DNA of 64,000 nt from Cephalotus follicularis (Eukaryota > Streptophyta > Magnoliopsida > Oxalidales > Cephalotaceae). The notes beneath the pieces were generated by a model, which was not told where the DNA came from, ran no database searches, and saw only the letters and a program-made list of their open reading frames with translations. Positions 28,018 to 60,889 of this stretch are shown here, piece after piece (the stretch's first letter is position 1; each line of letters opens with the position of its first letter). Both the position numbers and the translations under genes were made by a program. Location of the stretch: assembly GCA_001972305.1 (NCBI GenBank), contig BDDD01000894.1:204512-268511 (forward strand), given 5' to 3'.

Positions 28018-28079
28018 ATGGGCCAGATATCCCTCACATCCCTTCTCTAGGTATCTCGATGATCAAATAAAGGATATGA

Positions 28080-34701: not shown

Positions 34702-34905
34702 TGTATCGGCCGGGACCTTTGTTATGGTAATATTCCAACTTGAAATGTAATCTTATTATTGAATTAATGAGAATGGCATAATTTCTGACTTAGATGATGC
34801 TTTCAAAAATTTAAATGGTTGGATTTTGGAAGAGGGAATGTTTGAAATGTTAAATAAATGTTAAATGATGCAATAAGAGGCAAAACGGTATAGTTTTGGG
34901 ATAAA

Positions 34906-37448: not shown

Positions 37449-37460
37449 TGGTATCAGAGC
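37449..37460 (+). other. Primer binding site of plus-strand Tekay element
   Basis: TGGTATCAGAGC lies three bases after the 5' LTR end, an exact initiator Met tRNA complement. Confidence 0.9.
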
Positions 37461-37556
37461 ATATTCCAAATATGCTTAGCTAGGAAATTTTTCTTGGCAA
37501 TCAATAAATTGTTTTCCTAAAGTCGTGACTAACCGTCATCCTTCTTATAGGAACAA

Positions 37557-38670: not shown

Positions 38671-38699
38671 GGGCATTGCGAAAGGTAGAGTTTTTACCC

Positions 38700-39900
38700 T
38701 TTCACAGACAGAGGTTTCGGAGTCTACCTCGGTCGTTGGAGGTACACTGTATATTTATGGTTTTTCTGCTAGAGTGTTGATGGACCCTAGAGCATCACAT
38801 TCTTTTATTTCATCACAATTTGTATCATGTTTAGATGTAACACCAGACTGTATGCCATATACCTTTATTGTGAGCACACCTACTGGAGTTTCCATGCATA
38901 CAGATATCGTATATAGGAGTTGTAAGATGTCTATGGCAGGCATTTCCTTGTACGCATATTTGATAGTATTGCCTATCCATGACTTCGATGTTATTTTGGG
39001 GATGGATTGGCTGTCAGCACATCATGTTTACATGGACTGCTACAGCAAGACTATTGATTTTCGTCTGCCCGATGGTACTGTTTTCCAGTTTAAGGGAGAC
39101 AAGGGGTTTTCTACACCGATTATGTCCTTCATCCGTGCATCGAGGTATCTCGAGAAAGGATGCGAAGGATATCTTGCTTATGTAATTGACCGAAGGAAAG
39201 AGAAGGGACTGAGTATCGAGGAAATTCCTGTTGCAAGTGAATTTTCGGATGTGTTTCCTGCAGACTTTGAGTCATTGCAACCAAGAAGGAATATGGAGTC
39301 TGTTATCGATATTATACCAGGTACAGCTCCTATTTCTAAAGCACCATATAGAATGGCTCCTGCAGAATTGAGGGAACTGAAATTGCAGTTACAAGATCTG
39401 ATCGATAAGGGTTTTATTCGACCTAGTGTTTCCCCATGGGGTGCACCTGTGCTGTTTGTGAAAAAGAAGGATGGATCAATGAGACTTTGTATCGATTACC
39501 GGATGCTGAACAAGGCAACGATTAAGAACAAGTATCCTCTACCACACATTAAAGAATTGTTTGACCAGTTGCAAGGGGCGAGAGTATTCACGAAACTTGA
39601 TTTGAGGTCGGGTTATAACCAGTTGAGGGTGAGGGAAAGAGATATTGAGAAGACTGCTTTCCTGACAAGGTATGGGCACTACGAATTCCTTGTGATGCCT
39701 TTTGGTGTTACCAATGCACCGACTGCGTTCATGTCATTAATGAACGATGTGTTTTGACCGTACCTGGACCAGTTTGTCGTTGTGTTTATTGACGACGTAC
39801 TAGTATACTCAAGGAGTGAGGAGGAGCATGCTTGCCATCTGAGGTTGGTTTTGCTGATTCTCCGAGAATAGCAGCTGTATGCCAAATTCAGTAAGTGTGA
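38700..39900 (+). pseudogene. Protease and reverse transcriptase of plus-strand Tekay
   Basis: One frame is open from 38774 to 39757 (327 residues). The protease active-site triplet, DSG in the other copy, reads DPR here ([11 protein letters not shown]), so it would be dead. VILGMDWL is the downstream protease motif. RT follows: [66 protein letters not shown] and [11 protein letters not shown] 39755-39757 interrupts before the catalytic FIDD (39785-39796), which remains readable beyond the stop. Confidence 0.9.
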
Positions 39901-40768
39901 ATTTTGGCTTGACCGTGTGATCTTTCTTTGTCACATTGTATCTGAAGAGGGCCTGGCGGTGGATCCATCGAAGATAGAAGTGGTACGAGATTGGCCACAA
40001 CCAAAGAATGTGACGGAGGTACGCAGTTTCCTTGGACTGGCTGGGTATTACAGAAGGTTTATCCAGAACTTTTCAAGGATAGTCGAGCCCTTAACTAGAC
40101 TCACCCAGAAGAAGACCTTGTTTGTCTGGGATGAAGATTGTGAAGCTAGTTTTCGTGAACTGAAGGATCAGTTGATTTTCGCTCCTATATTGGCATTACC
40201 TAAGGGTAATGAGGGCTTTGCAGTATATAGTGATGCATCGGGTAAGGGCTTGGGCTGCGTGATAATGCAGCAAGGAAGGGTGATCGCTTATGCTTTCCGG
40301 AAGCTAAAGATGTATGAAGAAAACTACCCGATGCATGACCTTGAACTTGCAGCTATTATCTTCGCCCTTCAGAAGTGGAGGCACTATCTGTATGGGGTGC
40401 AGTTTGAGATCTTTACCGATCATAAGAGTTTGAGGTGCCTGTTTTGTCAGGATACACTGAACATGAGGCAATGAAGGTGGGTAGAATTCTTTAACGATTA
40501 TGACTGCAGTATCCAGTATCATCCGGGAAAGGCTAATGTGGTTACGGATGCCTTAAGTCACAAGGCCATGATTGCCAGTACGATGGTGTCGCAATGGAAA
40601 ATGTTAGAAGACTTCCAACAGTGGTCTCCGTTTAATCAGTCACCAGGAATTTTTGTGGCCGACATGCGAGTACGGCCTGTGTTACTCGACCACATAAGGG
40701 ATGCACAACCACATGATCCTAAATTACAGCGGATTCAAGAGAACCTGGATTCGGAGTCTGATTTTTGA
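39901..40768 (+). pseudogene. RT thumb and RNase H of plus-strand Tekay
   Basis: The frame 39917-40474 carries the RT connection ([16 protein letters not shown]) and RNase H ([52 protein letters not shown]). A TGA at 40472-40474 (Arg codon in the other copy) breaks it. 40475-40768 completes RNase H ([16 protein letters not shown]) and stops at TGA 40766-40768, a codon that is also TGA in the minus-strand copy. Confidence 0.88.
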
Positions 40769-41638
40769 GTACACGCTGATGGTATTCTGAGATTTCATGG
40801 ATGGGTGGGTCTTCCGAATGATAGCGAGTTGAAGAGTGAGTTGCTTTACGGGGCTCATAAGTCCCGGTACAGTATCCATCCTGGTAGCACCAAAATGTAC
40901 CAAGATATGAAGAAGACTTACTGGTGGTCCGGCATGAAGCGCGAAATTGCCGAATATGTCGCGAAGTGTTTGACATGCCAGAGGGTCAAGGCCGAACACC
41001 AGAAACCGGCAGGACTGTTGCAGTCATTACCAGTGGCGGAATGGAAATGGGAACACATCACGATGGACTTTGTTTCTGGATTTCCACTGACTAGGCACCG
41101 TCATAATTCCGTGTGGGTTATTGTTGATAGACTCACCAAATCAGCACACTTTTTGCCTACACACGTCACTGATTCCGCGAGCAAGTTGGCTCGATTATAT
41201 GTGAAGGAGATTGTGAGACTGCACGGTGTTCTGGTGAGCATCGTCTGTGATAGGGATTCGATCTTCACTTATAACTTATGGAAGAGATTCTAGACAGCCT
41301 TCAGAACGAGATTGAATCTCAGTACTGCTTTCCACCCTCAAACAGATGGACAGTCAGAGCGTACCATCCAAACCTTGGAGGATATGCTTCGGGCTTGTGT
41401 GATCGATTTTGCTGGGACCTGGGAAGACCATATCCCTCTGATAGAGTTTTCTTATAATAACAGCTATCACGTGAGTATTGGTATGGCTCCATACGAGGCA
41501 CTGTATGGGAGGAAGTGTAGGTCACCCGTTTGTTGGGACGAGGTTGGTGAACGACCATTGCTTGGGTCGAATTTGGTGGAGGAGACTTCGGAGAAAGTCA
41601 AGTTAATCAAAGAGAAGTTGCTAGCAGCACAGAGTCGG
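40769..41638 (+). pseudogene. Integrase of plus-strand Tekay, split by a solo LTR
   Basis: The frame 40805-41293 has the zinc-binding HHCC (GAHKSRYSIHPG, CLTCQRVKAEH), the first catalytic Asp (MDFVSGFP) and second (CDRDSIFTYNLW). After a TAG at 41291-41293 the core continues (NLSTAFHPQTDGQSERT, QTLEDMLRACV with the catalytic Glu) to AAQSR, where the solo LTR begins at 41639. The reading resumes beyond it at 44806. Confidence 0.88.
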
Positions 41639-43799
41639 TGTCGCGCCCCGAACCGCGAGAGTAAACCCCCACGGTCCGACGTGCGAGATACATTCCCTTC
41701 AGTCCATTTAGTCATATAATTCATACTCCAAAAAGTGCTACAAATTTAAAACTTTAAATCCAAGTCAAATAAGCGGAAGAACCATTATATAACAGCGGAA
41801 TTAATCAATCCAAATAAATTAACTCTTAAAGTCTCCCGAAATTTCGGCATGAAGTATTCGTTTATAGGACTAAACCCCCTGTAAAGGAAAACTCATTTTA
41901 TATCTCAACACTCCCGAAGGAGGAAACAACAGTTTATCACAATAGGGAGGTCCTGTCTATATCTTTTACATCAACACCCATATCATAAGCACTGCCACAT
42001 GTCGGCAGGTCGATAGCTGAAATAAAACATCTCTAATATATCTTTAGATCTGTCTCTTATACATAACAAGTCTAACATCTCAATACAGCTCATTTATAAC
42101 TCAAGGACCTTTTACAACTCATATAAACAAACTCATATACAAGCAACTCCATAAACAACTAGCCAACAAAATCTGTTATAGAAAACCTGTCATCCTCAGC
42201 TTACCTTGTTGCAATCCATCACCTGTGCCTGAGCCTGACCCATTCCGCACACAGGGGAAATGGGTCAGCGACATAATGTCGTGTAGGTATACTATGCTAT
42301 GCATGCAACAGTATAATAGTGATATGCGTGTAACAATATATCAATGTATGTCATGTAGTGTATCAGCATAATAGTGATATGCGTGCATCAGTATATCAAT
42401 GTATGTCATTTAGTGCATCAGCATGTGTATGGGGTCCGCTCAATGTATATGGGTCCACCCAATGTATGGGGTCCGCTCAATGTATATGGGTCTATCGTTC
42501 CTGACATTCACGACGGAAATAAATGTCAGAACGGGTTATCTCGTTAGTCTCTTACAATACAACCAATAATCCATCCCGTAGTTGTGACCCAAAATCATGT
42601 GTGTTTTTAAATAATAAAAATAGGGACCATTTTGTAAAGGATCTCATGGGATCCACATCCGTCAAAACATGTAATATCGTTTCTGTAATCATGCATCATT
42701 TTTGTGTCCATAATCCATTTTGTAATCAATCTTTCATATATCATTTGGTTGGTCCCTATCGAAGTTGTAACGAATGGAAAGGAAGTCCGAATGGGAGTAT
42801 CCGTGCCCAGATGTCCCAATGGAAGCACCCGACCATTCTAAAATCCATAAAACAATGGCGAGGAAGTCCAAATAAGATATCTGCGTCTCGATATCCCAAT
42901 GGAACTATCCTGACCATTTTGAAAAACATTTAGAAACCATTTGCTAAAACTCTTTTATTGAGTACTTTCCTTAAAACTTCACTTTGAACATCGATTTAGA
43001 AATCAAAAGTGATACATAAGGATTTCCATAGGTTACAAAGCCTTAGGGAGGCTTTCTATGGAATTCGGTTGAAGATAAAACCATTTCGGATGGAAAACCA
43101 TGTAAAACAGTGTGTTTGGGCTGAATAGGGCACTAAGCGTCCATGCTTAGCCCCGGGCGTTAACAGTTTTAAAAGCACAAGATAAAGTGTCAACGGTTTG
43201 TTTTAAAGCATAAGGCGTCGACAGTTTTGATAGAAAATGTAGTTGCAAAAGTGTTCGTAAATCATTGGAACTATGTCCAAATAGTTCAAAGCCTTTTAAA
43301 ATTCATCCCATAGCCCGTGAATTAAGAGAAGGCAAGAACTCATCTCCTCTTAATTCAATATCGAACCCTTATATCATGTGTCATATGCAATATGCATATC
43401 CATCCGTATACTTGCATATATATATATGTATATACAATCATGCATCCATGCAAGTACAATTCGTACACATATCAATCCAAATAATCATTTAGAATGCATG
43501 AATGCAATCTAAGCAATAGTATAACCTACCTCGTAGCAACTGAGCTTGTAAAGCTCGGAAATCCTCTATCCTTGATCGTTTTGCTCATCCTTGATCGTTT
43601 CGTTATCCTACATGTACAACACATTTCCGTTACACTCTACGCACGGAAACCAAGAACAACCGTTATCGGACCTTCGGCCAGTTTTCGGCTAACTCGCTTA
43701 GCTCCGGCGAAACCCAAAAACAAGTTCCACATTGGACGATATGTTCAAAACCATCGGAGGCTCATCGTGACTCGTCGCGAAACGCGCTGTCACAGCCGG

Positions 43800-44125
43800 C
43801 AATGAGTCAACTCACTGAGTCAACTCGCCGAACTTCAACAGTTTCGGTCAACACCCAAAATCGCCTTAACCGACCTTAAAATCCTTCACCCAGTCCATTG
43901 GTGGCCGTAACTCATCGGGAATCGGTGCCGAAACGCCCAGTCACGGCCGGCCAGTGAGTTCAAGTCACTGAGTTGACTCGCCGGTCATCCTCAGCTCCGG
44001 CCAATGCCATAAAACGCATCACAACCACCATATCAACACACCTAAAGCCTTAACTCGCCGAGACTCGGTGCGCATTGCGTGGTCTCAGGCGACAGCGGGT
44101 CCACTCGCTGAGTCGACCCGTCAGT
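43800..44125. repeat. TGAGTCA/TGACTCA repeats in solo LTR
   Basis: AATGAGTCAACTCACTGAGTCAACTCGCCG (positions 43801-43830), CACTGAGTTGACTCGCCGG near 43966 and CGCTGAGTCGACCCG near 44107 recur about 150 bases apart. The same phrase occurs once or twice in each LARD LTR (for example 8690-8708 and 48540-48562). TGAGTCA is a classic bZIP-type binding sequence. Confidence 0.6.
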
Positions 44126-44462
44126 TTGATTTCGGCCGTTTCCGGCCAAATGATGCCAAACCAGCCACTGAAATGGGTTTATCCGGCCTCCTAGGTGAAG
44201 ACTCGACCCACCCGCGACGCTAACCGGTGGTGGAACGCACGGCAGCGGCGTGACAGGGGCGACATCGAGGAGAAGAAAACGGCAGAAAAAGAAGAAAAAA
44301 GAGAAGAAGAGGAAACGAGGCATACCGTCGGGGTGGAGTCTCTGACCGGTGAGCTCCTGGTCCGGCGGCGTCGTCTTCTCCGGCGCCGAGCTCTCCCTCT
44401 CTCCCTTTCTCTCCCACTGCTCTCTCCCAACATCTCTCTCTCTCGTCTGTTTTCTTTTAACA

Positions 44463-44492
44463 GACACGGGCGCCTTATGCGCCCGTGTGTCT
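44463..44492. promoter_or_regulatory. GC hairpin in solo LTR promoter region
   Basis: GACACGGGCGC and GCGCCCGTGTGTC pair around a short CTTAT loop, next to CT-rich leader sequence. Position and form match the hairpins of the LARD LTRs. Confidence 0.7.
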
Positions 44493-44800
44493 CCTTTTCT
44501 TTCTTCTAAATTTTGCTCCCCTTCTTGGTATTGCCGGTCAAAATACTAAGGCACGGGTCCCGTTTAATCCGCAAACGGCAATATTAATTATCCGAAAGGG
44601 TACCAAAATAATCGCAATAAAAATGCGAACATAGGGACTTATTGTCGCGCATTAAAAATGGGCTTTATTAATCATTTCGGGCCTTATGATTTGCGGCTCC
44701 AATACGCGATGCCTTTTATTAATTCGGGCTCCATTGGTTCAATACGGTCATACACTGTACCAATATTAAAATAATTATTTATAAAATTTGGGGCCTTACA

Positions 44801-45270
44801 GTCGGCAGAAGAGCTATGTCGACAGTGTGAAGAGAAGGCCTTTAACCTTCAATGTTGGAGATTCTGTGTTTTTGAAAACATCTCCGTGGAAAGGGGTGCA
44901 AAGATTCGGGAAGAAGGGCAAGTTAGCGCCACGCTATATTGGTCCTTTTGATATTCTGGAGAGGGTTGGGGAGGTAGCTTATCAGCTAGCCTTGCCTCCT
45001 ACTTTGTCGGGCGTACATGATGTCTTCCATTTATCGATGCTACAAGGTTATATCCGAGATCCATCACATGTCCTGGATTGTGTCTCGGTTACGGTGAGGG
45101 ATGTTCTTTCCTGCGAGGAGTCACCTATGAGAATCTTGGATTGGAAGACACAAGTATTGAGGAACCGGACCATTCTGATGGTAAAGGTTCAGTGGCAATT
45201 TCATCGACCGGATGAAGCGACTTGGGAACGTGAGGATGATATCCGAGAACGTTACCCGTATTTGTTTTAG
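44801..45270 (+). pseudogene. Integrase C-terminus and chromodomain of plus-strand Tekay
   Basis: After the TSD, the interrupted protein resumes (SRQKSYVDSVKRRPLTF) and is open to TAG at 45268-45270. It carries the GPY/F-type module (KLAPRYIGPFDILERVG, VHDVFHLSMLQGYI) and a Tekay-type chromodomain (PMRILDWKTQVLRNR, KVQWQFHRPDEATWE). This segment has no internal stop, unlike its counterpart on the minus strand. A chromodomain would guide insertion to heterochromatin, consistent with this nested landscape. Confidence 0.9.
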
Positions 45271-45301
45271 TATTGTGTTAATTTCGAGGACGAAATTTCT
45301 C

Positions 45302-45315
45302 GAATGAGGGGTGGA
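45302..45315 (+). other. Polypurine tract of plus-strand Tekay element
   Basis: GAATGAGGGGTGGA abuts the 3' LTR start TGTAATGCACG. Confidence 0.88.
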
Positions 45316-48028
45316 TGTAATGCACGCGATCTTCGTTATGGTAATATTCCAATTTGAAATGTAATCTTATTATTGAATTAATGAGAATGGCATAACTTTT
45401 GACTTAGATGATGCTTTCCAAAATTTAAAAGGTTGGATTTTGGAAGAGGGAATGTTTGAAATGTTAAATGATGCAACTAGAGGCAAAACGGTGCAGTTTT
45501 GGGATAAACGCGTCGATGTCTTTGGGAAGACGTTGACGCCTATGGGAACAAAGGGCGCACGTGAATGCGTGTACATGCACGTCGATGTAGACGAAGACAT
45601 CGACACCCTCGTATGAAGGAGGAAAAGACATCAACGTCTAAGGAAGACGTCGATGTCTTTGAAGATAACATCAGTCACGTTATACACTGACAGAATAACA
45701 TGCAAATGGGAAACTTTTGAGGCATCTTGACATGCACAAAGTGACGTGTTGATCATGTTGGTGTGTTTCCATGCATGCTCCAAAACGTGTCCATGACATG
45801 GTGCATGCAAAAGAATATGCCATCTTCATCTGCAACCTGCAGAAAGGGAAAGGAAAAAGAGCCAAAAACAGGAAGGAGAGAGGAGAGCACGGGTGTGTGT
45901 GGATGCATATGAACCGAGAGAGAAGGAAAGGATTCTTGCCAGCATAAAACACCTCTCCCTTCTCCTCCTTCTCAGCTAAACACTATGAGAAAAGAGATAG
46001 AACAAAGAAATAAAGAGAGAAGATAGAACCACCATTGTTGAGCACTTGGAGCTTGGACCTTGGAGCTCCTGGGATTGCAACTGTGGATGAATCTTGAAGC
46101 TACTGAGACTGGATTCCAGGACTTAAAGGGGTGGAATTTCTAGTTCCTAACTTGGAACAAGAAGGTAGGGGAAAGTGATGATCTTATACATGCATTTTGA
46201 GTTTTAAGATAATGAAATTCCATTGATGAATTGCATGTTAATGGGTGAATTGAAATCCTTGGATTGTTGTTATGACTGCTGTGATGTACGGAGTAATCAT
46301 GCATGTGTAAATTACATGAATATTCGAACTGGTTTGTGTGAAGGATGGATTGGTAATGGCCTGATGTGTTAAAACCATGGAAATAACGTTCTGGGCTATA
46401 TAGATGTCGACGCCTACATAAGGACGTCAATGCCTTCGTGTGTGAATGCGACAGACGTCGATGTTTTTGTAAAACATCGACGCCTTTTCTGGGAAATTAC
46501 AGAACCTTAGTGTTCATTGTGGATAGTGAAATGCCTGCTTTTGATCACCTGATTTGTTCATGAATCGATATTTGGTTACGTATTCTGATAACCAGTAGCA
46601 TGCCTTACACTGTGAGAGGATGAGATTGTTTGTTAAGGATCGGATTCTTCCCCCTGGAATCAAGATTGCGAACTGGTACCTCCTGGTATCATAAAGACAT
46701 CGACGTCTTTGGAAAAGCATCGATGTCTTTTGGTCCTAAAATGCCTGGGAATAACTGCGCGAAATGTTGGCGCCTTAGGGTAAAGACGTCGACGCCCAGG
46801 GGATAAGCTTCGACGCTTATTCCCCTGTTTGAAAAGTTTTTACTCGAATGGGACCCGTTAGACCCGAAATGACTCTAGAAATGATCCTAGGTGCATTCAG
46901 AGCATATGTTTGCATTATTACTGAACTATGAATTGCATTATGGTTGATTGCTAAAAAGTGTTAACCATTTTGAAAAGCTTGCATGATTATTATAATCATT
47001 AATTGTACGAAAATGTATATTTGTCAAATATATATATTTTTTCAAATGACTGGGGAAAGTATTTTCCAAAGACGGTGAAATGTTTAAAGGATTGATTACA
47101 CAATTGAACTATATTGTTTTAAGTTTTATAACTTATCAAAACCTGAGAACGGAGTAATATATTTTAAAAAAATATATTTGATCAAGTCATTATATTTTAT
47201 TGCTTGACTTGTACTGTACGGTGTTTGTGCTTGTTGATTATTAGCTGCTGTGCTAATAACCTATTGATTATTTAGCCGTCGTGCTAAGCAACCTATACAG
47301 AGGACTTGCCCCAAACCATTCGCAAATGGGGATGGGGTAAGAGTGCATGACGTTGGGCCCAGGAGGTGGCGACGGTCGTGACGTTTTATTTGTCTGGTTT
47401 CTTTTGGGACATACTTACTGCTTGTGTTGATGTAGCCTTATTGGGTTATACCTGTACTTGGAACATGCATATATTTTACATATGTATATTCTACGATATA
47501 TATACTGTACTGCATCATAATGCATTCATTCATGACACTCATTATCATATACCTCGAACTGCATTTATGAGTTTATTCACTTAGCCGAGTGAGGACAAAG
47601 GCTAACCCCTACTGCAACAGATTGATGGAGTGGGATTTGATATGGAGCACGCAAGGAGACTTAAGGAGAAGACTGAATTGTTTCTCTTATTTTATGTACT
47701 GGATTAATGAACAATGACTATGTTACTTGGATTTGTAACGTGGATTTTATATCTCTCATGTATTGATGGATACCATGGTTTATTTCATTACTTACTGTAT
47801 TATCACTCTCCGTTTATGGGCGATCGACAATGATGTTGGGTTTTATATAAACATTGTGGGTATCACGTAGTATGAGATGCGTGATACATATTTAAATTCA
47901 GCTTATTTCATGTTAATGCTTTCGCTATTGCATGTTGTTGATTATACATAAAATCGCATAAGCTGAATTATGTTGGTTGATTGCCTTTACCGCTTTAAGG
48001 TTGTCTTCTCGGAAAGCGGGGTGTGACA
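45316..48028 (+). repeat. 3' LTR of plus-strand Tekay element
   Basis: 2.71 kb, colinear with 34702-37445 with scattered substitutions and a shorter TA run. Palindrome clusters lie at 45509-45662, 46403-46486 and 46696-46822. It ends GGGGTGTGACA, followed by TSD CGATT (48029-48033). Confidence 0.9.
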
Positions 48029-48033
48029 CGATT

Positions 48034-49315
48034 TCAAATCAACTATTAACAAGTCATATCAATATGAACATTCAAACGAATACTAATAAAGGGTTCAATC
48101 GAAACAATAATGTAATCATCATAGAACAAGGGCTATCAATAAGTCAAATGAATCACAAACGTAAAAATAACAAATAAGTATACATATTCATCATCAAAGA
48201 ATTTCATGAATAATAACATAAGAGAAGGAGATGTTCTACTCACAATATCAGAGCCGATACTACCACGGACTAACCCCGTTAAGCTTTGAATCGACTATCG
48301 GGTTCTCGTCATCGTTTTGAAACTCTATCAACCGTCACACTGCATTAACAACACATATCCGTTACTTTATACACATACGCAGTTAACACTGTGAGTCACC
48401 GGAGGTTTGGCCAATTTCCGTTCAACCTGCCAAAGTTCCGACGACACCCAAAACAACCCCTAAAACAACTAATCAACTCACATTACTGATCGAACTCACT
48501 GTGACATGCCCGGGAACGGGAAACCACCACCGTCAGTGAGTTTGAATCACTGAGTCAACTCGTCGGTCATCCAACAAATATAGCCACTTCACAAAAAGGT
48601 GTACACGAGGCCTTCACTATGTGTCTCTGACTGTAACTCGCCGAAAATCGATGGCTGCCGCCGCGCCAGCGTTCCGGCCGAGATGCCATTGCTCCAATCT
48701 CACCACCAGTAGCCTCCACAGCGTCCAGGCTACTCATTGGTGGCCGAGACTCGCTGGGAATCGGCACCAAAAGTGGCGGCAGCGAGTCAACTCGCTCAGT
48801 TGTCTCAACTGCCAAAAATCCAGCCGAATCCGTCCGAATCACGCCTTAACCACCGCTGAAATGGGAAGAGGTGGTCTTTTAGACCATGACCAGCCCAACC
48901 CGCGATGAAAACGGCGGCGGAGGTGAGCCGACAGTGTCAGCAGAGAGGAAGAGAAGGAAGGAGAGAGAAGAAGAAAGGAGGGAGAAGGAGAATACCTGGC
49001 AGTGGTCACGTCATCTGCCGTCTCCCCCTACCTCCGGCTCCTTGCTGTGCATCTTCTCCGACGTCTCTCCCTCTCTCTCGCACTATCTCTCTATCTCAAC
49101 TCTCTCCCTCTCTGTTCTCTTCATTCTCGGGCGCATGGCGCCCGAGCCCCTCTTTTCTTTTTAATTTGTCTGGCGCGTCTAGCGCCTTCTAGACACGCCA
49201 GACCTCTTTTTTTAAATAATAATAATATTATTATAATAACAATAATAAAAATAAAAAATAATACTCTACTCACGTCATTTACATCGACCTCGTAAAAGTG
49301 ACACGGGGTGTTACA
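48034..49315 (-). mobile_element. LARD middle LTR (LTR-b), fragment 3
   Basis: It resumes LTR-b exactly after the Tekay-plus TSD and runs to GGGGTGTTACA. It contains the complete hairpin at 49168-49203 (arms GTCTGGCGCGTCTAG and CTAGACACGCCAGAC) and a second GC hairpin around 49130-49145 (GGGCGCATGGCGCCC). Confidence 0.85.
49168..49203. promoter_or_regulatory. Full LTR hairpin (LTR-b)
   Basis: GTCTGGCGCGTCTAG, a short CGCCTT loop and CTAGACACGCCAGAC form a stem with one mismatch. In LTR-c (57583-57618) the arms read GCATCTAG and CTAGATGC, a paired change that keeps the stem. Confidence 0.75.
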
Positions 49316-49791
49316 ATCTCTGCCCCTTAAGAAATTTCGTCCCCGAAATTTACTCACAGTACATGGTAAAGCAATCTCTGTTGCTCAAGTATCTGTACTA
49401 GTACTCCCTCAACATCGATACATGGAAGCTATGATGGATGCATTACAGCTCTATAGATGAGTTGGTTATGGCCATGTCTTGCCTATTTCAGTGGAAGTTC
49501 TGCGACAAAGCTCGTCTGTCATGGATCTATACCGATACTTCATCATCACTGATAGAAATCATATGTGACATATCAATAAGTACCATTCTCACCCAAGCAC
49601 GCTTATCTTCAGAGTTCTGATGGAATCCCATTCATTAGCATTGATATGGTCACTCCTCAAAGTGGTCTAGATCATAAATGAGCCGAATAGACAGAAATGA
49701 GCCGTTGGATAGGTTATCCCAGTATGACTTATATCACATCGTACCTTAGCAGTATCCGTGTTGGTCATATAACGAAGACCAGCATGACATG
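49316..49791 (-). mobile_element. LARD internal domain 2, 3' portion
   Basis: Homologous to 9428-9961. The polypurine tract on the minus strand reads AAGGGGCAGAGAT just before the LTR start TGTAACACCCCG. It contains the second 5S-derived module. Cut at 49791 by a solo LTR. Confidence 0.82.
49553..49660 (-). ncRNA. 5S rRNA-derived module in LARD internal domain 2
   Basis: The minus strand contains AACTCTGAAGATAAGCGTGC followed by TTGGGTGAGAATGGTACT, very close to the plant 5S box A/intermediate-element region (only a few changes). The 5' domain (GTGACCATATCAATGCTAATG) is also recognisable; the 3' third has drifted. It is the same module as at 9668-9779, but box A is better kept here. Confidence 0.82.
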
Positions 49792-51825
49792 TGTAACGAC
49801 CCCGACCCGAGCTCGCTAATAGCTCAAAGTGAACTCCGAGGATCGGTTGCGTTACGTTGGGTGTGAAACGTTACATCCTTTGGTACTATTTTCTAAAAGT
49901 ACACTACATCATAAACTCATGTCTTGCAACATCATACATAATCTCAAATTCAAACTTTATACATAATCATCTTATATAAAGCTGTCATAACCATATCGTT
50001 GGTCTACGTTACACAGGAGCATCCTTCTACATAAACATATAATACAACGGAAAAACTTTGTTCTTATTACATATCAAAACATTTATGCAAACATCATTGC
50101 ATAGCCTTTCTTTCACAAAAACTCCTTCTTAAGAGCTTCCTCTAAGCTCGTAATCTCCATTCATTCATTTCCTGAAAACATTTTCTTTGAAAACAACATT
50201 GAAAGGAATGAGCTCAAAATAGCTCAGTAAGGTGTTTTTATAATAAACACATTTCATCATGACATTTTTCTAGTCAATACATATAACTAGAACATTTCGT
50301 AAAGCATATCACTTTTCTAATTACAAACTCATAATTAGAACATTTCATAAACATAGAAGTCATAAAAACCTTAATGAACCCTTTACACCGCTTCACCGGG
50401 GCATTATGCACTTCCCGACTACTATCCTTACATCACATGCATGTCCGTGAGCATCTCGCTCCATTCCCCTTGGATCGCAATCCAAGGGCGGTTCATTCAT
50501 CATTTACTTTGAGTGATCAGATCAAAGAAATCACAAAAATCATTTCATAACATTTCTTTCACAATTCATAAACTTTTCTCTTCATTTGAGTAATTGACTC
50601 AAATAAGTTCATAAAAACAATTTTGCATAGCTTTGCGAAAACTGATAATTCATATAGAAATAAGTATTTTCAGTGAAAACTTAAAACATAAACATTAAAG
50701 TAGACATATTTACGAATTTATAAAACTCAAGATCATAACAATTGGTTGAGAATTGAATCCGTTATGAATTTTTGAGAGTGGTTGGTTCCATATGAAAACA
50801 GGACATGAGCAGTAAAATGAAACATTAATTCTCATCAAGAATTCGAAAGAATTTAGAGATACATAAAACATAACAGTTAAAGAGGACATCTTAAGGTTTT
50901 CAAAACATCCAACCATTTAATTTTTCATTAAGAAACGTGCAAGATATGATTTAAAGAAGTTGCTGCATAACCCAGGAATAAAACAGTACCCAGACAACAA
51001 TTTAAAACATTAATTTTCGTCAAGAAATAGATAGAATCTTGAAATGTGCAAAGCATAAAAGTTAAAGAGGACATCCTGACATTTCCAGAACATTCAACCA
51101 TTTAATAATTCATCAAGAATTGGGGAAGATATCAATAGAACAATCTGCTGCATAACTTTGAATCAAAACAGAGGAAGCTTTGACATAAATGGGTATAGGA
51201 ATTCCTTACTTTGCTTTAGAATTTCTTTCTCTTTTGCTCTCCCACGAATTCTTCACTTTACTCTCAGTAGGAGGACTTTCCTTCTCAGCTAAAATGACTG
51301 AGTTCAACCCTCTTTTCCATTAAATAGAAGGATTACTTGGGAGGCAAGTCTTCTCCCCTTCTCACACAACTCAACTCTCTCTCTTGGCAGCCCATGTGCT
51401 CAAATTCAACCAATCCAAGTGATTACACTTGCTAGATCATCTGATAACATCTCATATCATCCTTCCCTGTCCTGCCACGTGTCAAAAATTAAATATTTTC
51501 ACTCACAAAATGACAAAATGTCAGATTTTGCATTTTGCTGTAGCTCAAAGCGTCGACGTTTTCTTACAAAGCGCTGACGCTTTCTATCCTGACTAAAGCG
51601 CTGACGCTTTCTTACAAAGCGTCTCCGCTTTAAGTCTTCGTCCAGGTCAAGTGACACACTTGACTTCAACGCGTCGACATTTTCAATTAGAGCGTCGTCC
51701 GTTGCCCAAAGCGTCGACTCTTTCTCGTAAGGTCATACTACGGGTCCCTTGAACTATTTGCCAAAATACATACTAGCAATCATTTTTCATAATTAATATC
51801 TTACATGGAAATTTGGGTCATTACA
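49792..51825 (-). mobile_element. Solo LTR, 2.03 kb
   Basis: TGTAACGACCCCGACC...GGGTCATTACA with exact TSD ACATG (49787-49791, 51826-51830). AGCTCAGTAAGG near 50225, the reverse of the usual leader phrase, suggests minus orientation. One palindrome cluster (51545-51728) lies near its minus-strand start. No internal domain. Confidence 0.88.
51545..51728. repeat. AAAGCGTCGACG motif cluster in solo LTR
   Basis: Units AAAGCGTCGACGTTTTC, AAAGCGCTGACGCTTTC (twice), AAAGCGTCTCCGCTTT, GCGTCGACATTTTC, GCGTCGTCCG and AAAGCGTCGACTCTTTC. They are similar to the Tekay-minus type but flanked by AAA/TTT as in the Sirevirus type. Confidence 0.78.
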
Positions 51826-53245
51826 ACATGCTCCCATAAGACGTCAAAATCACATGAACCACTCGTAAAGCCAACTGGCACACTTATGGGGTCAACGAGG
51901 CACACGAACATCATACGTGTCGAGCAACAAACGCTTGGACAGCGAATAAGGAACGAAGTCCCATGTCCATTTGATATCTCGTATCCAACTGCACGAGAAA
52001 GCTCTAGAAATTCATAACACGTCAAATGAGCAATGCATACTTGGAACACAAAACTACTTTATGATCAGCCAACCTGAAAAGGCGTTGGGCAAAACTATTC
52101 TGAGGGACATTAAGATTCCGTTTCATAAGTATGCAACACACGATCTCAAACGTAATCCACTAATAGCAAGTATGTCTGAAGACAAAACTGAAGAGGCATG
52201 CGTATCGATCGATCGATGAATCAATATGGAGCCAGCCAAGCCACGCAACCAAAATACCACTCAAGCGCCCAACATACACAAAGCAAAAGGATATCTGAAC
52301 GAACCACAATTCAAGATGATGAATAGTCAATGCCAAACATGCAGAAACATCGTGAAAATCCCATGCCAACATCGATAGGCGTGATGTAAGAATGAGTAAA
52401 AACTCCAAGTGCTGACAATCAAGGCTGACGATCGAAGCATCGTGTACAAAATGCACAAGCTCAAGGCACCATGAAGGCCGGTTGCAAATACTCATGTCAT
52501 CATGCGTACAAACGCCAGCACACGCAGAAGAACATGCACATAAATACTCACACAAGCCTCATGCAAGCACCACATTATGCATTCACAATCGCTAAGCAAA
52601 CCACAAGAAGTGCACATAATAGCATGTGAACAAACTCTTTGTGTGGACAACGAATGCATCATCTACATAAAACGCACACGAGTGCACATCAAGATGCACA
52701 CGCAAAAGCCTGGTGCATGACAATTGCATCGCTAGCACAAGGGCACAACAATCATAGCATACTCTTCCGCTTGAGAATATAAAGTGGCTGCAATTGCTTG
52801 AAGTTTTGATATTGCTCCATATTAAGTTGCTGATATGTTGAACATCTCGTTATCAAAACTACGATATTTATCTTCATGTTGTTCTACCAAAAGTGCTCCC
52901 TCAAGCGACAACACACTTGGTATTTTTAGGTTGTATCGCATAAGATGAACTATGGCCTTCACAAGGACTTACGTTTAACGGCTTCATTAGCGACGGACAT
53001 AACCTGTCCCCATACATCAATGTTTCGTTGTCTCAAAGCGAGCAGTCAGTGCAGTTACAATTCTATCACCGACCATCGCTGATCCGGTCCTGCAATATCG
53101 GTCTCTCCTGAAGAGTAGACGATAGGGCTCCCATGCGTAAGGCTGACAGGATCACGTGCAACGATTTGAAAACTCATCCGAAGATAAGTCAGAGAAGCAC
53201 AAAACTTCTCACTCAAAGCATCTATAATCGTGTTTGCTTTGCGCT

Positions 53246-53325
53246 GGGGGATTCATCAGCGTAATTGTACTCTTTAATCATCTCCACGCAGCTCCGCTCG
53301 AGGTTCGAATCCCTGTCTATAAATA
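53246..53325 (+). other. tRNA-like B box and TATA-like sequence (antisense to LARD)
   Basis: GGTTCGAATCC at about 53302-53312 is an exact tRNA B-box consensus, preceded about 40 bases upstream by AGCGTAATTGTAC. TATAAATA follows at about 53318. Stem pairing for a full tRNA is weak. It may be a SINE-like or tRNA-derived remnant. Confidence 0.4.
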
Positions 53326-53979
53326 CCTATATAGAGCCAACATTCGTCCATAAGAGATGATGTCTTCTTTCCATAGCCGTTATATGCTAAATTCTTTATT
53401 GTACTCTGCTAAAGTTTCCACCAAGTACTCAAGCAAAAAAGTATCATACTAGTTGCTTGAACCTCTCCTGACAATTCGTCACTGTCAACCATTCGTCGCT
53501 GTGAAGCAGTACTGGAACATATGCAAGAACCATAGAGTAGTTTCGCCAATGCATTTAAGGTGTTCTGTCGCGTACATCGCGCCCGATAGTTCATAAAGTC
53601 TAGAATAGCCAAGCTATGGCTCACTAGAACTCTGGCTCAGACATATCAATTAATAAAGGGCTATAGGAAAGATAACGTCATTACGGCTAACTCGGCCGCT
53701 ACCAAAACAGAGATAACATCTTACAATATCTCTAGCCTTAGAATCCTTATCCTTACATCTTACTATGGCTCTACATGAGCCGTCTATCAGGTAGTCGTCT
53801 ATCAAGTGACCTTAAAAGATCTCACTATTTGTCCTACCCTGTACCCATTTTACCAACCACGGGGCATGCTACCGAACACATGGCACTGATGCAATGCATG
53901 ATATGCAAGAGTTTGTAAAACTTAAAACCACTTTTGAAAAACAATTTACGATACAAGTCTAGAGAATCTAAAACCAAAG

Positions 53980-53991
53980 GCTCTGATAACA
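53980..53991 (-). other. Primer binding site of LARD element 2
   Basis: The minus strand reads TGTTATCAGAGC, the Met-tRNA site with one substitution, just after the LTR-c terminus. Confidence 0.78.
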
Positions 53992-53994
53992 AAA

Positions 53995-56900
53995 TGTCAA
54001 ACCCGTTTCCTACCGAGACGAATGTGACAATCACATGGCAAGCCTCCTTTCGGAAACCACCATGTGATATCTTAAAATCTGAAGTTTCTTTAAAACAATT
54101 TCATCTAACCATAATTTAAGGTTTCTAAAAACTTGAAAATTTTTCTAACTCTTAAAATTTTACGAAAATCGGGCATGTAGTATCCGTTTATCAGACTATG
54201 CCCCTGTAAATAAAAACACAGTTTATAATCACACTCCCGAATGAGGAATCAACAGTTAATAATGGGGCTCAACCCTCAGTAAACCACAATTTAAAACAGT
54301 AAACACAGGTTGGGCTCAGCCTCAACCATTTCAACTAGCAATAAAGGTAAATCTATAGGGCTCGGCCTTTTAAAAGCAAAACTATAAAGGAAACCGTTTA
54401 TATGAAAACATAAGTAAATGCATAATTTAAATGCTAATGTAGTTATGCTATGCATGTGTTGAAATCCTGGTAGCATGCCCTGCCCTCGTGATCCACCATC
54501 TACTGAACATATCTAACAATCATCTTGCCTCTATCTGAATGGGGGAAAGAAAAAGGTGGGGGTTAGTCCAAATGACTAAGTGAGTAGAAACAAAATACAT
54601 CTCCCATAACTATAAACCAAATAAAAGGAGAATAAAATAAGCTCAAAGTAGAATATAAAGTAAATCCACGACATACAATGACAACAAATAAGATAAGATC
54701 CACAAAGATAACATTATCACAAAGGACAACAAAATCCTCAAGGAAATCAAGATCCACCCAGGATATCGAGACCACAAATGGATATCGAGATTACAACGAA
54801 ATCCACAAAACAGATCCACAAGGGTAACAAGATCATTTCAATGCTTAATAATTAATTTCCACAAATATGAACATAGACATTAACAAAACGTCATGAATGC
54901 AACTCGGAAGTCAACGATAAATGTTTCACTAAACAATCTCAGAGTTCAAGACTTCCAAAGTACCATAAAATCAGAGTACATGAAAATATCAATAATCGCG
55001 GATATGATCAAGAATATAAACTCATGCTGGATAGAATCAATAAATGAAAGAAATGAAAGGCCATCATGGCTCCATGAAAGAACGCTCAAACTCATCAAAT
55101 GCAATAACCTAAGAATCCAAGAAACAATCCCGTTGATCAAGTCAATACTATACAACACAATAGACTCGCAATGAAACAACCAGTGACTCAACAAGGAGGT
55201 CCACTGAACAATTACCATACTCAAGGCAATAATCAAATATAAAAGAGTCACAATAATATCAAATATCTAGTTATCAAAGCATAAAGACATGATCATAACT
55301 CAAATGACAGTATAAATATCAAGAATGTAATATATGCCCAAAAATATCATAAATATATAAGAGGATGTTGGTACCTATCATGTCACTGCCTCATATCCCC
55401 GCCAAATCACATGGCGTCATATCATAACCGTTGTAGCAATAATATCAGGCAAATAGGCTACAAGACGAGATCATCATCCATCATACACCGGTGCAGAGTG
55501 CCTATGGTAAGCATAACATCCAAACCTCGCATGAGGGGCCGACATATACCGTACGGACCCTAGCCCTCGCCGAGAAAACCCGCACGCACACTCAACTTCA
55601 TCCAAGGGACCTGCATGCAATATATATATCAACAACCAATCACAGTCCAATAGGAGGGTAATGAAGCAGCTCTGCTGCACTCACACTCAGCATACCATCA
55701 TAGACAATAGTATGCCGTAGATCCAGGTATGGAACCCGGGGGCAGTTTCCACATAACACCCCATCATAGACCAATGGGCTTGCTAAGTAGAGTTGAGCGT
55801 CGAACATATACTTCTCTGTGGACCGGTAATACATATCAGAGAACCCGGTACCCAGCATCAGAGTATATCATAGTATAACAATATAACAAGTCACGATATC
55901 GCAAACGTGAGAAAGTGACCAAGTCACCCAGAACATCAAGCATATACCGCTCAGAATAATATCACAATGATGAATATAACAACAAAAGACAACCGGGATA
56001 CAAATCCCAACCAATATCACCATCTCAAGGCAATCGAACACATATGGACTGATATGACTCTCAAACACTGGAGAAGTGAATATCACAATGAATCAACATA
56101 TCGAATACGGGAATAATTACAAATCAACAAATCTGGCTCTCAATAGCCATCTCATTATAGAATCTAAAAAGGGCACCAATATCATTAAGAACAAGTACAA
56201 TGAGAGTAAGGGAAGAGAATCTCCCACTCAAAAAACACATAGCTCTCACAACAACGATCTCTAGAAATGGATAAAGATTTTCCAACGATACCCATAATAA
56301 GGTTCAACTATGACGATATGGAGATGGAAATAATATAATAGCAATAGCAATAAAGTACATCTCCGTAGGAGCCAAACAGATATGCAACAACAACAAAAAA
56401 CATATATGTCCACAGGAGCCAATGCGAAAATAATAAAAAGGAGACAAGGTGGGTATACAATCAATCAACGTGTCATATCAATATGAATGTTCAATTGGAA
56501 TACCAATAGAGGGCTCAAAGCAAACGATTAAGGAATCGATTTCAAATCAACTATTAACAAGTCATATCAATATGAACATTCAAACAAATACTAATAAAGG
56601 GTTTAATCGAAACAATAATGTAATCATCATAGAACAAGGGAAGGAGATGTTCTACTCACAATATCAGAGCCGATACTACCACGGACTAACCCCGTTAAGC
56701 TTCGAATCGACTATCGGGTTCTCGTCATCGTTTTGAAACTCTATCAACCGTCACAATGCATTAACAACACATATCCGTTACTTTCTACACATATGCAGTT
56801 AACACTGTGAGTCATCGGAGCTTTGGCCAATTTCTGGTCAACCTGTCAAAGTTCAGACGACACCCAAAACAACCCCTAAAACAATTGATCAATTCACATT

Positions 56901-57723
56901 ACTGATCGAACTCACTGTGACATGCCCGGGAATGGGCAGCCACCATCGGCAGTGTGTTTGACTCAATGAGTCAACTCGCCAGTCATCCAACAAATATAGC
57001 CACTTCACTAAAAGGTGTACACGAGGCCTGTACTGCGTGTCTCGGACCGTAACTCACCGAGAATCGGCGACTGCCGCTCCGCCAGAGCTCTAGTCGAGAC
57101 ACCATTGCTCCGGTCTCGCCACCAGTAACCTCCACAGCGTCCAGGCTACTCATTTGTGGCTGAGACTCACCGGGAATTAGCGCCAAAAGTGGCGGCAGAG
57201 GCGGCAATGAGTCAACTTGCTCAGTTGTCTCAACCGCTAAAAATACGGCCGAATCACGCCTTAACCACCAGTGAAATAGGAAGAGGTGGTCTTTTAGACC
57301 ATGACCGGCCCAGCCCACGATGAAAATGGCATCAGAGGAGAGCCGGCAGTGTCGGTAGAGAGGAAGAGAAGGAAGGAGGGAGAAGAAGAAAGGAGGGAGA
57401 AGGAGAATACCTGGAAGTGATCACGTCGTCCGCTGTCTCCCCCTGTCTCCGGCGCCTTGCCGAGTGTCTTCTCCGGCGTCTCTCCCTCTCTCTCGCGCTA
57501 TCTCTCCGTCTCAACTCTCTCCCTCTATGTTCTCTTCATTCTCGGGCGCACGGCGCTTGAGCCCCTCTTTTCTTTTTAATTTGTCGGGCGCATCTAGCGC
57601 CTTCTAGATGCGCCAGACCTCTTTTTTTTTAAATAATAATAATATTATTATAATAACCATAAAAAATAATACTATGCTCACGTCATGTACATCGACCTCG
57701 TAAAAGTGACACGGGGTGTCACA
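53995..57723 (-). mobile_element. LARD 5' LTR (LTR-c)
   Basis: Plus strand TGTCAAACCCG...GGGGTGTCACA, 3.73 kb uninterrupted. Compared with LTR-a it lacks roughly 120 bases near 56640 and a small piece near 54795. It has the complete hairpin at 57583-57618. The exact TSD AGGCT follows (57724-57728), matching 5615-5619, so it is the right end of the tandem array. Confidence 0.88.
57583..57618. promoter_or_regulatory. Full LTR hairpin (LTR-c)
   Basis: GTCGGGCGCATCTAG and CTAGATGCGCCAGAC pair with a short loop. The inner stem GCGCATCTAG/CTAGATGCGC is perfect. Confidence 0.75.
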
Positions 57724-57728
57724 AGGCT

Positions 57729-57778: not shown

Positions 57779-58936
57779 AGCGTTTGAAAAATAGTTTTCA
57801 ATGATTGCATGGACATTTTAATTGATTGATTGGTGTCGTGAATCTAATTTTGGAACATTGGATGCACATTCCCATTTCTCCATTAGACATCACCACTTTT
57901 TGCCATTGTACTGATAGATTGATTGTATTGTATGGATCCTATAGAGCGACCTTATGGCTCGCATTGGCATGTTAGGCTGTTGACTCTCTCCACCTAATTC
58001 GTCGATCGTTTCATTTATTGTATTGTCCTACTGACGAGCAATATTGATTGATTGACAATTGATGCTCCTCTACGGCTGTAGCTCTCCGACGGTTGAAGCT
58101 CCCCGATGGTTGAAACTCATCGATATTGTATTGACCCAGCCGTAGGTTGGAAGATCTATGAGTCCCAGACCTGATCAGTCTGAGACAAGTAGATAGATCT
58201 CCCAACCTTTTTGAAGGATTTGCTTCCGTGGGATTGATCATTCTCATTGATTGACATTGTATTGACCCGAGGTCACATGCTCTATAGGATATGATTGATT
58301 GATTGGGTGTTTTATACACCACCATTGAATGTCTGCCATTGATTGATTGCTATAGATCCTATCCATATGCGCTGTTATGGGCTAGTGTGATATGGATAGT
58401 TAGATCGCCAATTGTATGCATGCATTTTCCATATCATGCATTGATATTGTACACAGAACAATTATATTGTATAATCTGTCACAAATATTGCACCTTGTAC
58501 ATGCATACATGTTGCATAGGGGTTCTATTTAGCCTTGTGGCTAGCCCCATCCTACGGGATGGGGCTGTGTGTGCATTCTTGTGTGGCACAGGTAGGACAG
58601 CAGGTAACAACGAATAGAAGAATTGAAGATTCGATTTAACCACATGACCATTTTGTTTTGACAGAGCATGTATTGTAAACTGTATTGAAAAGGGTGATGT
58701 TTAGTATTGTATTGTATCATTTTACAGATGATTGTAAGTTGTGATGGATTATTGATGCAGTAGTGATCGATAATGGTCATGGTTTCGTAAGAGAATTATG
58801 TTGTATCTTCCGCATATTGAGATGTATTGTAAAGTTTTGGTTTTCCGCATTTTTATATTGCTAGTCCCGACCACTTTATTGTGTATTGGATTGAGAATAA
58901 TGCCACATGTTCATCCTCTAGGCGCGGGGTGTTACA
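57779..58936 (+). mobile_element. Right part of LTR-like element X
   Basis: It continues the sequence interrupted at 1902 and ends GCGCGGGGTGTTACA at 58936, a typical LTR terminus. It is rich in ATTGATTGATT words, shared in style with 1200-1260. No reading frame is supported. The next bases AGAT (58937-58940) repeat those before 791. Confidence 0.55.
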
Positions 58937-59761
58937 AGATGTATGGTGACAAATTTTGGTGTAAGAGCTGTGTCTAGATGACATCCCCTATTGCGAAAGA
59001 ATGTCATCTTTACACAAATCTTTAAGGACAGGGATCTGAACCTCAAACAGGGGTCAGATCATTGCACGTGAACTTGTCAGCCTCAGGCATGGGAGTTCTA
59101 TTGACTACTCTTTGGGTGAGATCGATATTGCAGGACAGGATCAGTGATGTACAGTGATAGGATCGTAAGCACACCGACTACTCGCTTTGAGATAATGGAA
59201 CGCTGATATATGGGGACAGGTTATGTACGTCTCACACTGAAGCCGTCAAACGTAAGTTTTTGAGAAGGCCATGACTTATCTTATGTGATGCAACCTAGTA
59301 GTGCCAAGTGTATCATCACTTGAGGGTGCACTTCTGGTAGAACAACATGAAGAGAAATAATGTAGCTTTGATAACCAGATGTTCAACATAGCAGTAAATC
59401 AATGTAGAGCAACAGTGAAACTTAAAAACTATTATAGCTGCTCTATATTCCCAAGCGAAAGTGTGTGTTATCATTTATTATGCCCTTGTGCTATTGATGC
59501 AAATTTGATGTGCGCTCGTGTGCATTTTGAGCACATGATGCATTCATTGTCCACACGAAGAGTTTGTACTTGTGCCTATTGGTGAAAGTATTGGTTCTCT
59601 TGATGTTTCCACATGATTGACGTTGACTATCATCGTTTTGATTTGTGGTTCGTTTAGACAATCTCTTGCTTTGTGTACGTTTGGGTGTTTGAGTGGTATT
59701 TTGGTTAGGTGACTTGGCTGACTCCATGTTGATTCATCAAACTGTCAATGGGCATGCCTCT

Positions 59762-60043
59762 TCAGTTTTTGTCCTCGGGCATATTTGCTATTGGTGGGTT
59801 GCGTTTGAGATCCTGTATTGCATATCTATGAAACGGAATCCCAATGTCCCTTGGAAGATTTTTGCCTGATGCCCTTTGAGGTGTTGGGTTGGACATGTAG
59901 TAGTTCTTGTGTTCCAAGCATGCGTTGTTCATTCTACTTTGTTGTGGGCCACTAGACCTTTCTCGTATAGTTGGATATGGTATATCAAGTGGGCGTGGGA
60001 TTTCGTTCCTTATTCGCATGTCCAAGAGTTTTTCACTCGACAC
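59762..60043 (-). other. Weak antisense reading frame shared with LARD internals
   Basis: The minus strand gives about 93 codons from a GTG, with no ATG at the frame start. Parts (NLPRDIGIPFHRYAIQDLKR) are recognisable in the same frame at 20196-20444 and 51971-52219 (NIPRDIRIPFHKYATRHLKR). One-base indels break the remainder. It runs antisense to the LTR orientation. The function, and whether it codes at all, are unknown. Confidence 0.3.
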
Positions 60044-60263
60044 GTATGATGTTCATGTGTCTCGTTGACCCCCCAAACCTGTCTGCTGGCTTCAATCGGT
60101 GGCATGTGGTGTTTGACATCATGTGGGAGCATGTCATGATAGACTTCGTCACATGACCAACATGGGCACAGTTAAGGTATGATGCGAAATAAGTCATATT
60201 GGAATGACCTACCTAAACGACTCAATTCTATCGATCTAGCTCACTTGTGATCTAGACCGCTTG

Positions 60264-60379
60264 GGGTGCGATCATACCAGCACTAATGCACCGGATCCCA
60301 ACAGAACTCCGCAGTTTAGCGTGCTTAGGCAAGAGTCATACTAAGATGGGATTTGCTATAGGATTTCCTCATGCACAGG
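60264..60379 (+). ncRNA. 5S rRNA-derived module, best preserved copy
   Basis: It begins GGGTGCGATCATACCAGCAC and continues through ATGCACCGGATCCCA, CAGAACTCCGCAGTT, TAGCGTGCTTAGGCAAGAG and TACTAAGATGGG, in 5S rRNA order and spacing and over nearly the full length of about 118 bases. Box A is close to consensus. The box C end (GTGACC in 5S) is altered to ATTTGCTA, so a functional gene is doubtful. No 5S spacer or tandem array surrounds it; the flanks belong to the LARD internal domain. Confidence 0.88.
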
Positions 60380-60380
60380 A

Positions 60381-60889
60381 AAGACTTGACTATGACTGAC
60401 TCAACAAATCGATGCATTTTCTATTGACTCGGGTTATCGACGATGTAGGTTGCTTGGCAACGTTACATGGAATCATCAAGCTTCATATGGCTTCAGTAAG
60501 TATCGTGCTGGGTTTGGAGACAAGGTCTACTTCTCGATTTTTTTTTCCCACTTTTCAAAGTGTCTTGGGTACTAGTTCAAGGGTTAGTGTAGTTAGTGTC
60601 CTCAGACTTTCAGGCAGTCAGCTTTATAGCAGTTGAGTTTATTAAAGGTACATCACAGGCACATGCACCATACCCTAGAAGTCATCTCTAGCCTTGCATT
60701 GCATTCATAGGGATTATTGAAATTTTGTATATACATATATTCCTGCAAGGGTATGTACCCAATATTCTTTTCTAGCATATAGAGAATTGGGGTGGTAGGG
60801 CAGACGAAGTGTAAGTCCTAGTAGACCATCGAAACACTTTTACGTTAGCTAGAGGGGTCATATACTTTACACGTTGTGAGATAAAAATT
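60381..60889. other. Unassigned sequence
   Basis: No domain, LTR terminus or repeat of this window was recognised. A T9-type run occurs near 60540. It joins the 5S-derived module to the pararetrovirus relic. Confidence 0.4.

Follow-up and report, generated by a model that had tools for sequence, protein, structure and literature searches.

The 5S rRNA sequences known from LTR retroelements are, as far as the available portions of the literature describe them, confined to miniature elements, whose LTRs contain them and use them as promoter. Cassandra is a TRIM with 5S sequence in its LTRs (PMC7215508, PMC10853983), 5S-bearing TRIM LTRs are described in PMC7215508, PMC10886601, PMC10853983 and PMC12786077, and the last of these terms Cassandra an exception among LTR elements. 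The element reported here carries its 5S sequence in the body of a large LTR element. To the extent covered by these accounts, it resembles Cassandra in being a plant LTR retroelement without coding capacity, in its TGGTATCAGAGC-type primer-binding site (PBS), in containing 5S-derived sequence and in forming tandem LTR-internal-LTR arrays. It is set apart by the description of Cassandra itself, which is ~0.6–0.9 kb long, has its 5S sequence midway along each of the two LTRs and retains boxes A, IE and C, whereas here the 5S sequence lies in the internal domain of a ~7–10 kb element and is cut inside box C.

Three further systems are comparable within what the accessible parts of the sources relate. 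Ajax, a nemertean TRIM, also combines partial 5S sequence with a non-autonomous LTR element, but it is small, belongs to an animal, and holds only the promoter part of 5S, in the LTR (PMC10886601). SINE3 likewise has a 5S-derived piece in a retroelement; however, it is mobilised by non-LTR elements and is without LTRs, PBS and polypurine tract (PPT) (PMC10886601), whereas the present element has LTRs, a PBS and a 5-bp target-site duplication (TSD). LARDs such as Sukkula share LTRs, PBS, PPT and an internal domain encoding no protein, but their description in the available text of PMC7215508 includes no 5S module. No publication describing 5S sequence within the internal domain of a LARD was found in the open-licence PMC literature.

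The window analysed is a 64,000-nucleotide stretch of the Cephalotus follicularis genome (contig BDDD01000894.1, positions 204,512–268,511). Self-comparison, termini and target duplication delimit a tandem element on its minus strand:

5620..57723, minus strand: tandem non-coding LTR element, LARD-like, with the order LTR-internal-LTR-internal-LTR
57724..57728: target-site duplication, right copy (AGGCT on the plus strand)
53995..57723, minus strand: LTR a, the 5' LTR of the tandem
53980..53991, minus strand: primer-binding site X, TGGTATCAGAGC type, 1 mismatch
49316..53994, minus strand: internal domain X, non-coding, containing an inserted stretch (49792–51825)
22222..49315, minus strand: LTR b, the central LTR of the tandem, interrupted by two nested elements of the Ty3/gypsy type (22457–32354 and 34711–48028)
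22207..22218, minus strand: primer-binding site Y, 1 mismatch
9426..22221, minus strand: internal domain Y, split by an insertion (9962–20103) that includes a copia element
5620..9425, minus strand: LTR c, the 3' LTR of the tandem
5615..5619: target-site duplication, left copy (AGGCT on the plus strand)

The termini of the element are TGTRACACCCCG...GGTGTGACA, with the target duplication AGCCT at both sides. This 5-bp duplication flanking the whole of 5620–57723, together with the termini, indicates that the tandem behaves as a single insertion, within which several nested insertions of the Ty3/gypsy type and copia are carried. The three LTRs are 93.8–94.6% identical pairwise over the 2.3-kb segment that was compared, and the PBS is of the type that we take to be primed by initiator tRNA-Met. 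The internal domain is ~2.6–2.7 kb long, of which ~2.3 kb between PBS and 5S module are non-coding: in this long upstream part of X and Y, all six sense frames contain 31–43 stops in ~705–722 codons, and the longest open stretch (132 aa) is without a Pfam match.

The 5S-derived modules of the window are found at the following places:

49579..49657, minus strand: 5S module X, 5S nt 1–79; nt 82–87 likely follow ~60 nt later, at ~49511–49516
9691..9769, minus strand: 5S module Y, 5S nt 1–79; nt 82–87 likely follow ~60 nt later, at ~9623–9628
60264..60350, plus strand: 5S module of locus c4, 5S nt 1–87, 79/87 identical to a host 5S gene

5S-like sequence is confirmed at all three. With the Rfam 5S model, 60264–60379 on the plus strand scores 42.3 bits (gathering score 38), 49553–49657 on the minus strand 31.4 bits (E 0.005), which is under the gathering score, and 9665–9769 on the minus strand 18.4 bits (E 7.7), which by itself is not significant. 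In direct alignment to Citrus 5S, a reference composed of published oligos (Table 1 in the available part of PMC13342924), the three places score 144, 90 and 88, against maxima of 36, 34 and 34 in 500 shuffles each. Among 854 segments of 300 bases covering both strands, all seven that score above 34 overlap these places. The initial annotation had named the lack of a significant covariance-model hit at 9668–9779 and 49553–49660 as speaking against its reading; with Rfam such a result was obtained at 9668–9779, but it is overridden by the direct 5S alignment and the shared flanks.

Modules X and Y, which have their flanks in common, are in sense orientation between the PBS (53991 and 22218, minus strand) and the PPT/LTR start, in agreement with the counterparts that had been proposed for both internal domains of the tandem. 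In domain X, 342 bases separate module nt 1 (49657) from the start of the LTR downstream of it (49315). The description of the 5S sequence as near full-length has to be revised, since the module comprises nt 1–87 and is, in X and Y, also interrupted by ~60 nt (~49517–49578 and ~9629–9690, minus strand). This extra stretch was seen in one of 31 flank-selected copies from elsewhere in the genome (L098), and in Y its ends bear a 7-base direct repeat, TTACAGA. Compared with the host 5S gene L001, c4 differs at 6/79 positions, X at 18/79 and Y at 18/79; 14 changes are common to X and Y and none of them occurs in c4. As X and Y lie within one insertion, they are not independent copies. Open frames across the module are short, the longest (78 aa) lying beside c4.

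The third module, which the initial annotation had assigned to the same element, belongs to a separate and older relative of the tandem element:

58926..58936, plus strand: LTR-end-like sequence GGGGTGTTACA of c4
58952..60520, plus strand: older related locus c4, homologous to domains X and Y from the PBS-like site to beyond the 5S sequence
58957..58968, plus strand: PBS-like site of c4, TGGTGTAAGAGC, 2 mismatches

Beyond the 5S sequence, the homology of c4 yields tail scores of 67.5 and 71.6, where 1000 shuffles reach at most 54.6 and 53.4. A PPT, a 3' LTR or an LTR pair was sought at c4 and none was recognised. The common flanks and placement originally claimed for all three copies are thus borne out for X and Y, and for c4 with respect to the homology but not to a PPT or 3' LTR. 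Further along the plus strand, 60900–62400 is A-rich, with frames that suggest a zinc-knuckle capsid relic; from reading it, our impression is of a remnant of an endogenous plant pararetrovirus or a retroelement.

The C. follicularis genome (1.577 Gb) was searched with X, module included, and with c4; loci resembling X are referred to as type I and those resembling c4 as type II. The best 40 of 1395 candidates were scored for X and the best 40 of 1285 for c4, candidate counts not being copy counts, and every one of the 40 spans the module in both cases. The two lists share no place; where they have a contig in common (C894 and C496), the positions on it differ. A query of flank sequence that lacked the module, taken from one element, was likewise evaluated for the best 40 of 1388 candidates, and the module is at the expected spot in 36 of these 40 places. 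Five of the 40 were already known with module (X, Y, C1623, C5408 and C7378); among the other 35 stretches it is present in 31, in sense orientation in all 31, with L082 and L091 having the first ~45 nt only. In the remaining four (L074, L088, L094 and L103) no module is recognisable, and the sequence at the module spot did not align as flank, which fits loss or interruption. The internal domain of this large non-coding LTR element regularly contains the 5S-derived module. Module and element are inherited together, and the genome-wide search proposed in the initial annotation therefore upholds its statement that the module travels with the element.

The surroundings of the module are similarly regular. 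Upstream, the non-coding domain is found in 29 of 30 X-query loci, the exception being X itself with its intervening insertion, and an LTR-start motif occurs ~330–430 bases after nt 1 in 23 of the 30 (at ~257 in L026, unmatched in six). Locus L052 is a complete single element of ~7.3 kb with the same layout as the tandem's units, i.e., a 5' LTR (356–3029), a PBS directly after it with one mismatch, an internal domain of 2.7 kb with the module, then the PPT and a 3' LTR (5756–7694), flanked by the TSD GCGGG. In L050 the TGGTATCAGAGC PBS is exact. The attributes of a LARD, i.e., LTRs, PBS, PPT and TSD, are present in L052 and in the tandem element (TSD AGCCT), and the long internal domain without coding capacity in X and Y. 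Those of Cassandra are not: X, Y and L052 have the module in the internal domain, flanked by the PBS on one side and the PPT on the other, and not inside the LTRs, box C is intact in 0/60 and box A in 12/60 copies, and L052 is far from a TRIM size below ~1 kb. The architecture, with an internal module in a large element, differs from that of Cassandra, as was pointed out initially. Neither relatives of the flank pattern nor matches to a plant 5S 17-mer were found in viral and prokaryote collections.

The junctions of the module were analysed in 39 type I copies and 21 type II copies (20 loci fetched of 39 new places, and c4). The module starts exactly at 5S nt 1 without spacer and ends at nt 87, inside box C. 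The commonest base in type II agrees with host 5S at 84 of the 87 positions of nt 1–87. Its agreement with the sequence upstream of host 5S genes is at chance level (4/20 positions), the spacer being absent, and past nt 87 its agreement with 5S is down to 10/32 positions. The 5S likeness ends at the same point, nt 87, in the eight aligned copies among the 31 flank-selected ones. For c4, a weak colinear match to nt 88–110 was obtained (P 0.019; local test P 0.11), and X and Y show no likeness to the 3' third of 5S (P 0.85 and 0.56); in view of these values and of the type II agreement, the sequence past nt 87 is taken as not 5S. Furthermore, every state of the type II commonest base at nt 1–87 occurs in host or Citrus 5S (0/87 exceptions), compared with 11 exceptions in type I, which implies that the founder was a faithful, intact 5' fragment of 5S RNA, cut inside box C.

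The best reading of the module is that of an inherited passenger, 5S sequence in a new location within an LTR element. It seems likely that 5S nt 1–87 was copied into the LARD-like internal domain once, by a template-switching reverse transcriptase, and has probably been carried as a passenger since. During minus-strand synthesis, the enzyme would have switched from element RNA to 5S RNA at about nt 87, run off the 5' end of the 5S RNA at nt 1, and returned to the element RNA. A 5' end at the start of the RNA, the missing spacer, the cut 3' end, the sense orientation and the tRNA-like patch described below fit template switching onto packaged RNAs. The left-part module haplotypes are interleaved on the flank tree, where branch support is uneven, and this mixed placement also fits exchange between co-packaged element RNAs.

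Other sources of 5S sequence have to be weighed against the same junctions. A Cassandra LTR, or 5S gene DNA acting through gene conversion, would each be a plant source bearing 5S, and the interleaved haplotypes indicate that exchange seems to occur; however, the Cassandra core keeps boxes A, IE and C according to the available part of PMC10853983, where box C is cut in 60/60 copies here, and gene DNA should have brought 5S spacer, which is not present, so that this origin is very improbable. The entry of a 5S-derived SINE, or of a LINE-made 5S retrocopy, into an ancestral element and its subsequent inheritance is unlikely. An exact transcript start with 3' truncation also fits a SINE3-like head, a LINE-made retrocopy whose tail has since disappeared would resemble the product of template switching, and single 5S matches do exist outside the arrays, one of them (L001) followed by CCCCCTTTAAAAAAA. 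Against it, inspection by eye revealed neither an A-tail following nt 87 nor a target duplication around the module, and the tRNA-like patch is better explained by exchange inside particles. Regarding the host 5S matches themselves (L001–L008), these consist of diverged arrays (contigs C24, C252 and C789) and scattered single places, which are perhaps retrocopies; the sequence after the L001 match is an A-run.

The tRNA-like patch is marked by AGAGTGG in the middle of the 5S sequence and occurs in 8 of the 31 flank-selected copies (L082, L085, L086, L089, L092, L105, L106 and L107). In L089 it reads ATCAGAGTGGCGCAGCGGAAGCGTG, presumably the 5' end of a plant initiator tRNA-Met, the kind of tRNA taken to prime the element. 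The six aligned patches, one base longer than 5S, match this presumed tRNA 5' end at 25 (L089), 24, 24, 23, 23 and 22 of 25 positions, compared with 18 for the same 25 positions against 5S (counted by hand, the extra base being included in the tRNA match). Of the eight patched copies, L082 and L086 match it in part only. The letters ATCAGAG of the patch are also present in the TGGTATCAGAGC PBS type. We take ATCAGA, CGCAG and AAGCGTG to be common to 5S and initiator tRNA-Met in this region, and between such shared motifs a reverse transcriptase could slip from one RNA to the other. On the template-switching reading, one subfamily would later have undergone a further switch that put the primer tRNA's 5' end in place of 5S nt ~38–60. 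Scans of literature and viral sequences for the patch returned nothing.

Junctions and patch look like footprints of a reverse transcriptase that uses other RNAs of the particle. In a broader version of the template-switching reading, which we regard as speculative and unlikely as a whole, the internal domain would be a site where packaged Pol III RNAs enter while the element is being reverse-transcribed: 5S rRNA to begin with, and later the element's primer, initiator tRNA-Met. In one subfamily the box A region of 5S would have given way to that of the tRNA, and the resulting 5S/tRNA hybrid would have spread with the family and may have served as a new kind of internal Pol III start. The element offers a testable case for the entry of small-RNA modules into LTR elements, a step that necessarily precedes anything Cassandra-like. 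It also calls for caution with 5S-like hits in large plant genomes, which can turn out to be cargo of retroelements.

As to function, the module could be, or recently have been, a Cassandra-like Pol III promoter, whose short RNAs would begin at 5S nt 1, close to the internal domain's 3' end. The intact nt 1–87 of the founder is compatible with this, box A is intact in 12/21 type II and 11/31 flank-selected copies (the latter a hand count on aligned rows), and in both X and Y the first T4 run is met 360 nt downstream of nt 1, immediately inside the 3' LTR. The module, however, ends inside box C, of which no intact copy was found among 39 type I and 21 type II copies, box A is intact in 0/39 type I copies, the upstream bases match host 5S genes at 4/20 positions only, and the flank-selected set exhibits no additional constraint on the module; altogether, a promoter role is unlikely. 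The notion that box A is well kept in two copies does not agree with one mismatch in X, three in Y and one in c4, nor with the type I count.

In the flank-selected set, shared polymorphisms amount to 34/75 sites in the flank, 15/34 at nt 1–34 and 18/45 at nt 35–79, and singletons per site to 0.39, 0.26 and 0.60, respectively; the post-module tail, with 58/95 shared polymorphisms, aligns poorly and is not relied on. Between the types, 8/79 changes in 5S compare with 10/130 in the flank (p 0.61), and the divergence of the module is at least that of the flank. Two results point weakly in the other direction: c4 agrees with host 5S at 52/53 positions of nt 1–53 versus 27/34 of nt 54–87 (p 0.005), two of the seven differences in the latter being states also present in Citrus, and the type II founder state has 0 changes, although half the flank divergence predicts 3.3 (P 0.035). 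Entry of the module a short time before the divergence of the two types would also account for both.

Preservation as a structural RNA, with a 5S fold and a 5S-binding protein aiding the element RNA, is highly unlikely. It drew on a block from nt 35 to +255 with few shared polymorphisms in the module-query sample (24/221 versus 68/164 in 40 loci, p 4e-12), a contrast that vanished in the flank-selected sample. Helix II/III pairs are kept in 13, 10 and 8 of 15 cases in the three window copies, which is not above simulation, and folding z-scores, at 0.43, 0.37 and -0.14 for the modules and 0.53 for the block, do not exceed expectation. The block was seen in module-query samples of 22, 40 and 38 loci, the first of which left out 8/30 loci with an interrupted or incomplete upstream part, and singleton density in the 40 loci was similar, at 0.51 per site in the block versus 0.63. 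Selected by flank, the block has 76/142 shared polymorphisms versus 49/109 to its left (p 0.20); the contrast is therefore an artefact of locus choice by a query including the module, and the block as a conserved unit is withdrawn. Window and genome copies revealed no constraint on promoter boxes or helices, the sites at which the initial annotation had suggested testing whether substitutions are avoided. Among the roles initially offered for the module, ancestry is favoured, and the sequence comparisons lend no support to the idea that the module now serves as a Pol III promoter or as a structural RNA.

The nested element 34711–48028, which we take to be a Tekay-like chromovirus, encodes gag, protease, RT and RNase H, with a chromodomain match under the Pfam cut-off. 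The last ~55 bases preceding the PPT of the LARD-like element are similar to those of this nested element (score 50 versus a shuffle maximum of 36), whereas the other nested Ty3/gypsy-type element fails the same test (29 versus 37). Judged by this likeness, a Tekay-like chromovirus is a possible helper type for the LARD-like element; the chromovirus differs in being coding and in having no 5S match above shuffle level. Stretches resembling the LTR of the tandem element are located inside it at 41820–44502, and it has thus perhaps itself been hit by an insertion.

The tandem element sits within a solo LTR of its own kind that is older and on the plus strand (1903–5619 and ~57729–57773, duplication ATTCG/ATTCA); it cuts this LTR ~45–50 bases before the LTR end. 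The 2.03-kb insertion in domain X (49792–51825), starting with TGTAACGACC on the plus strand, is probably a solo LTR of a different family, and the copia gag protein in the window is 95% identical to a C. follicularis protein.
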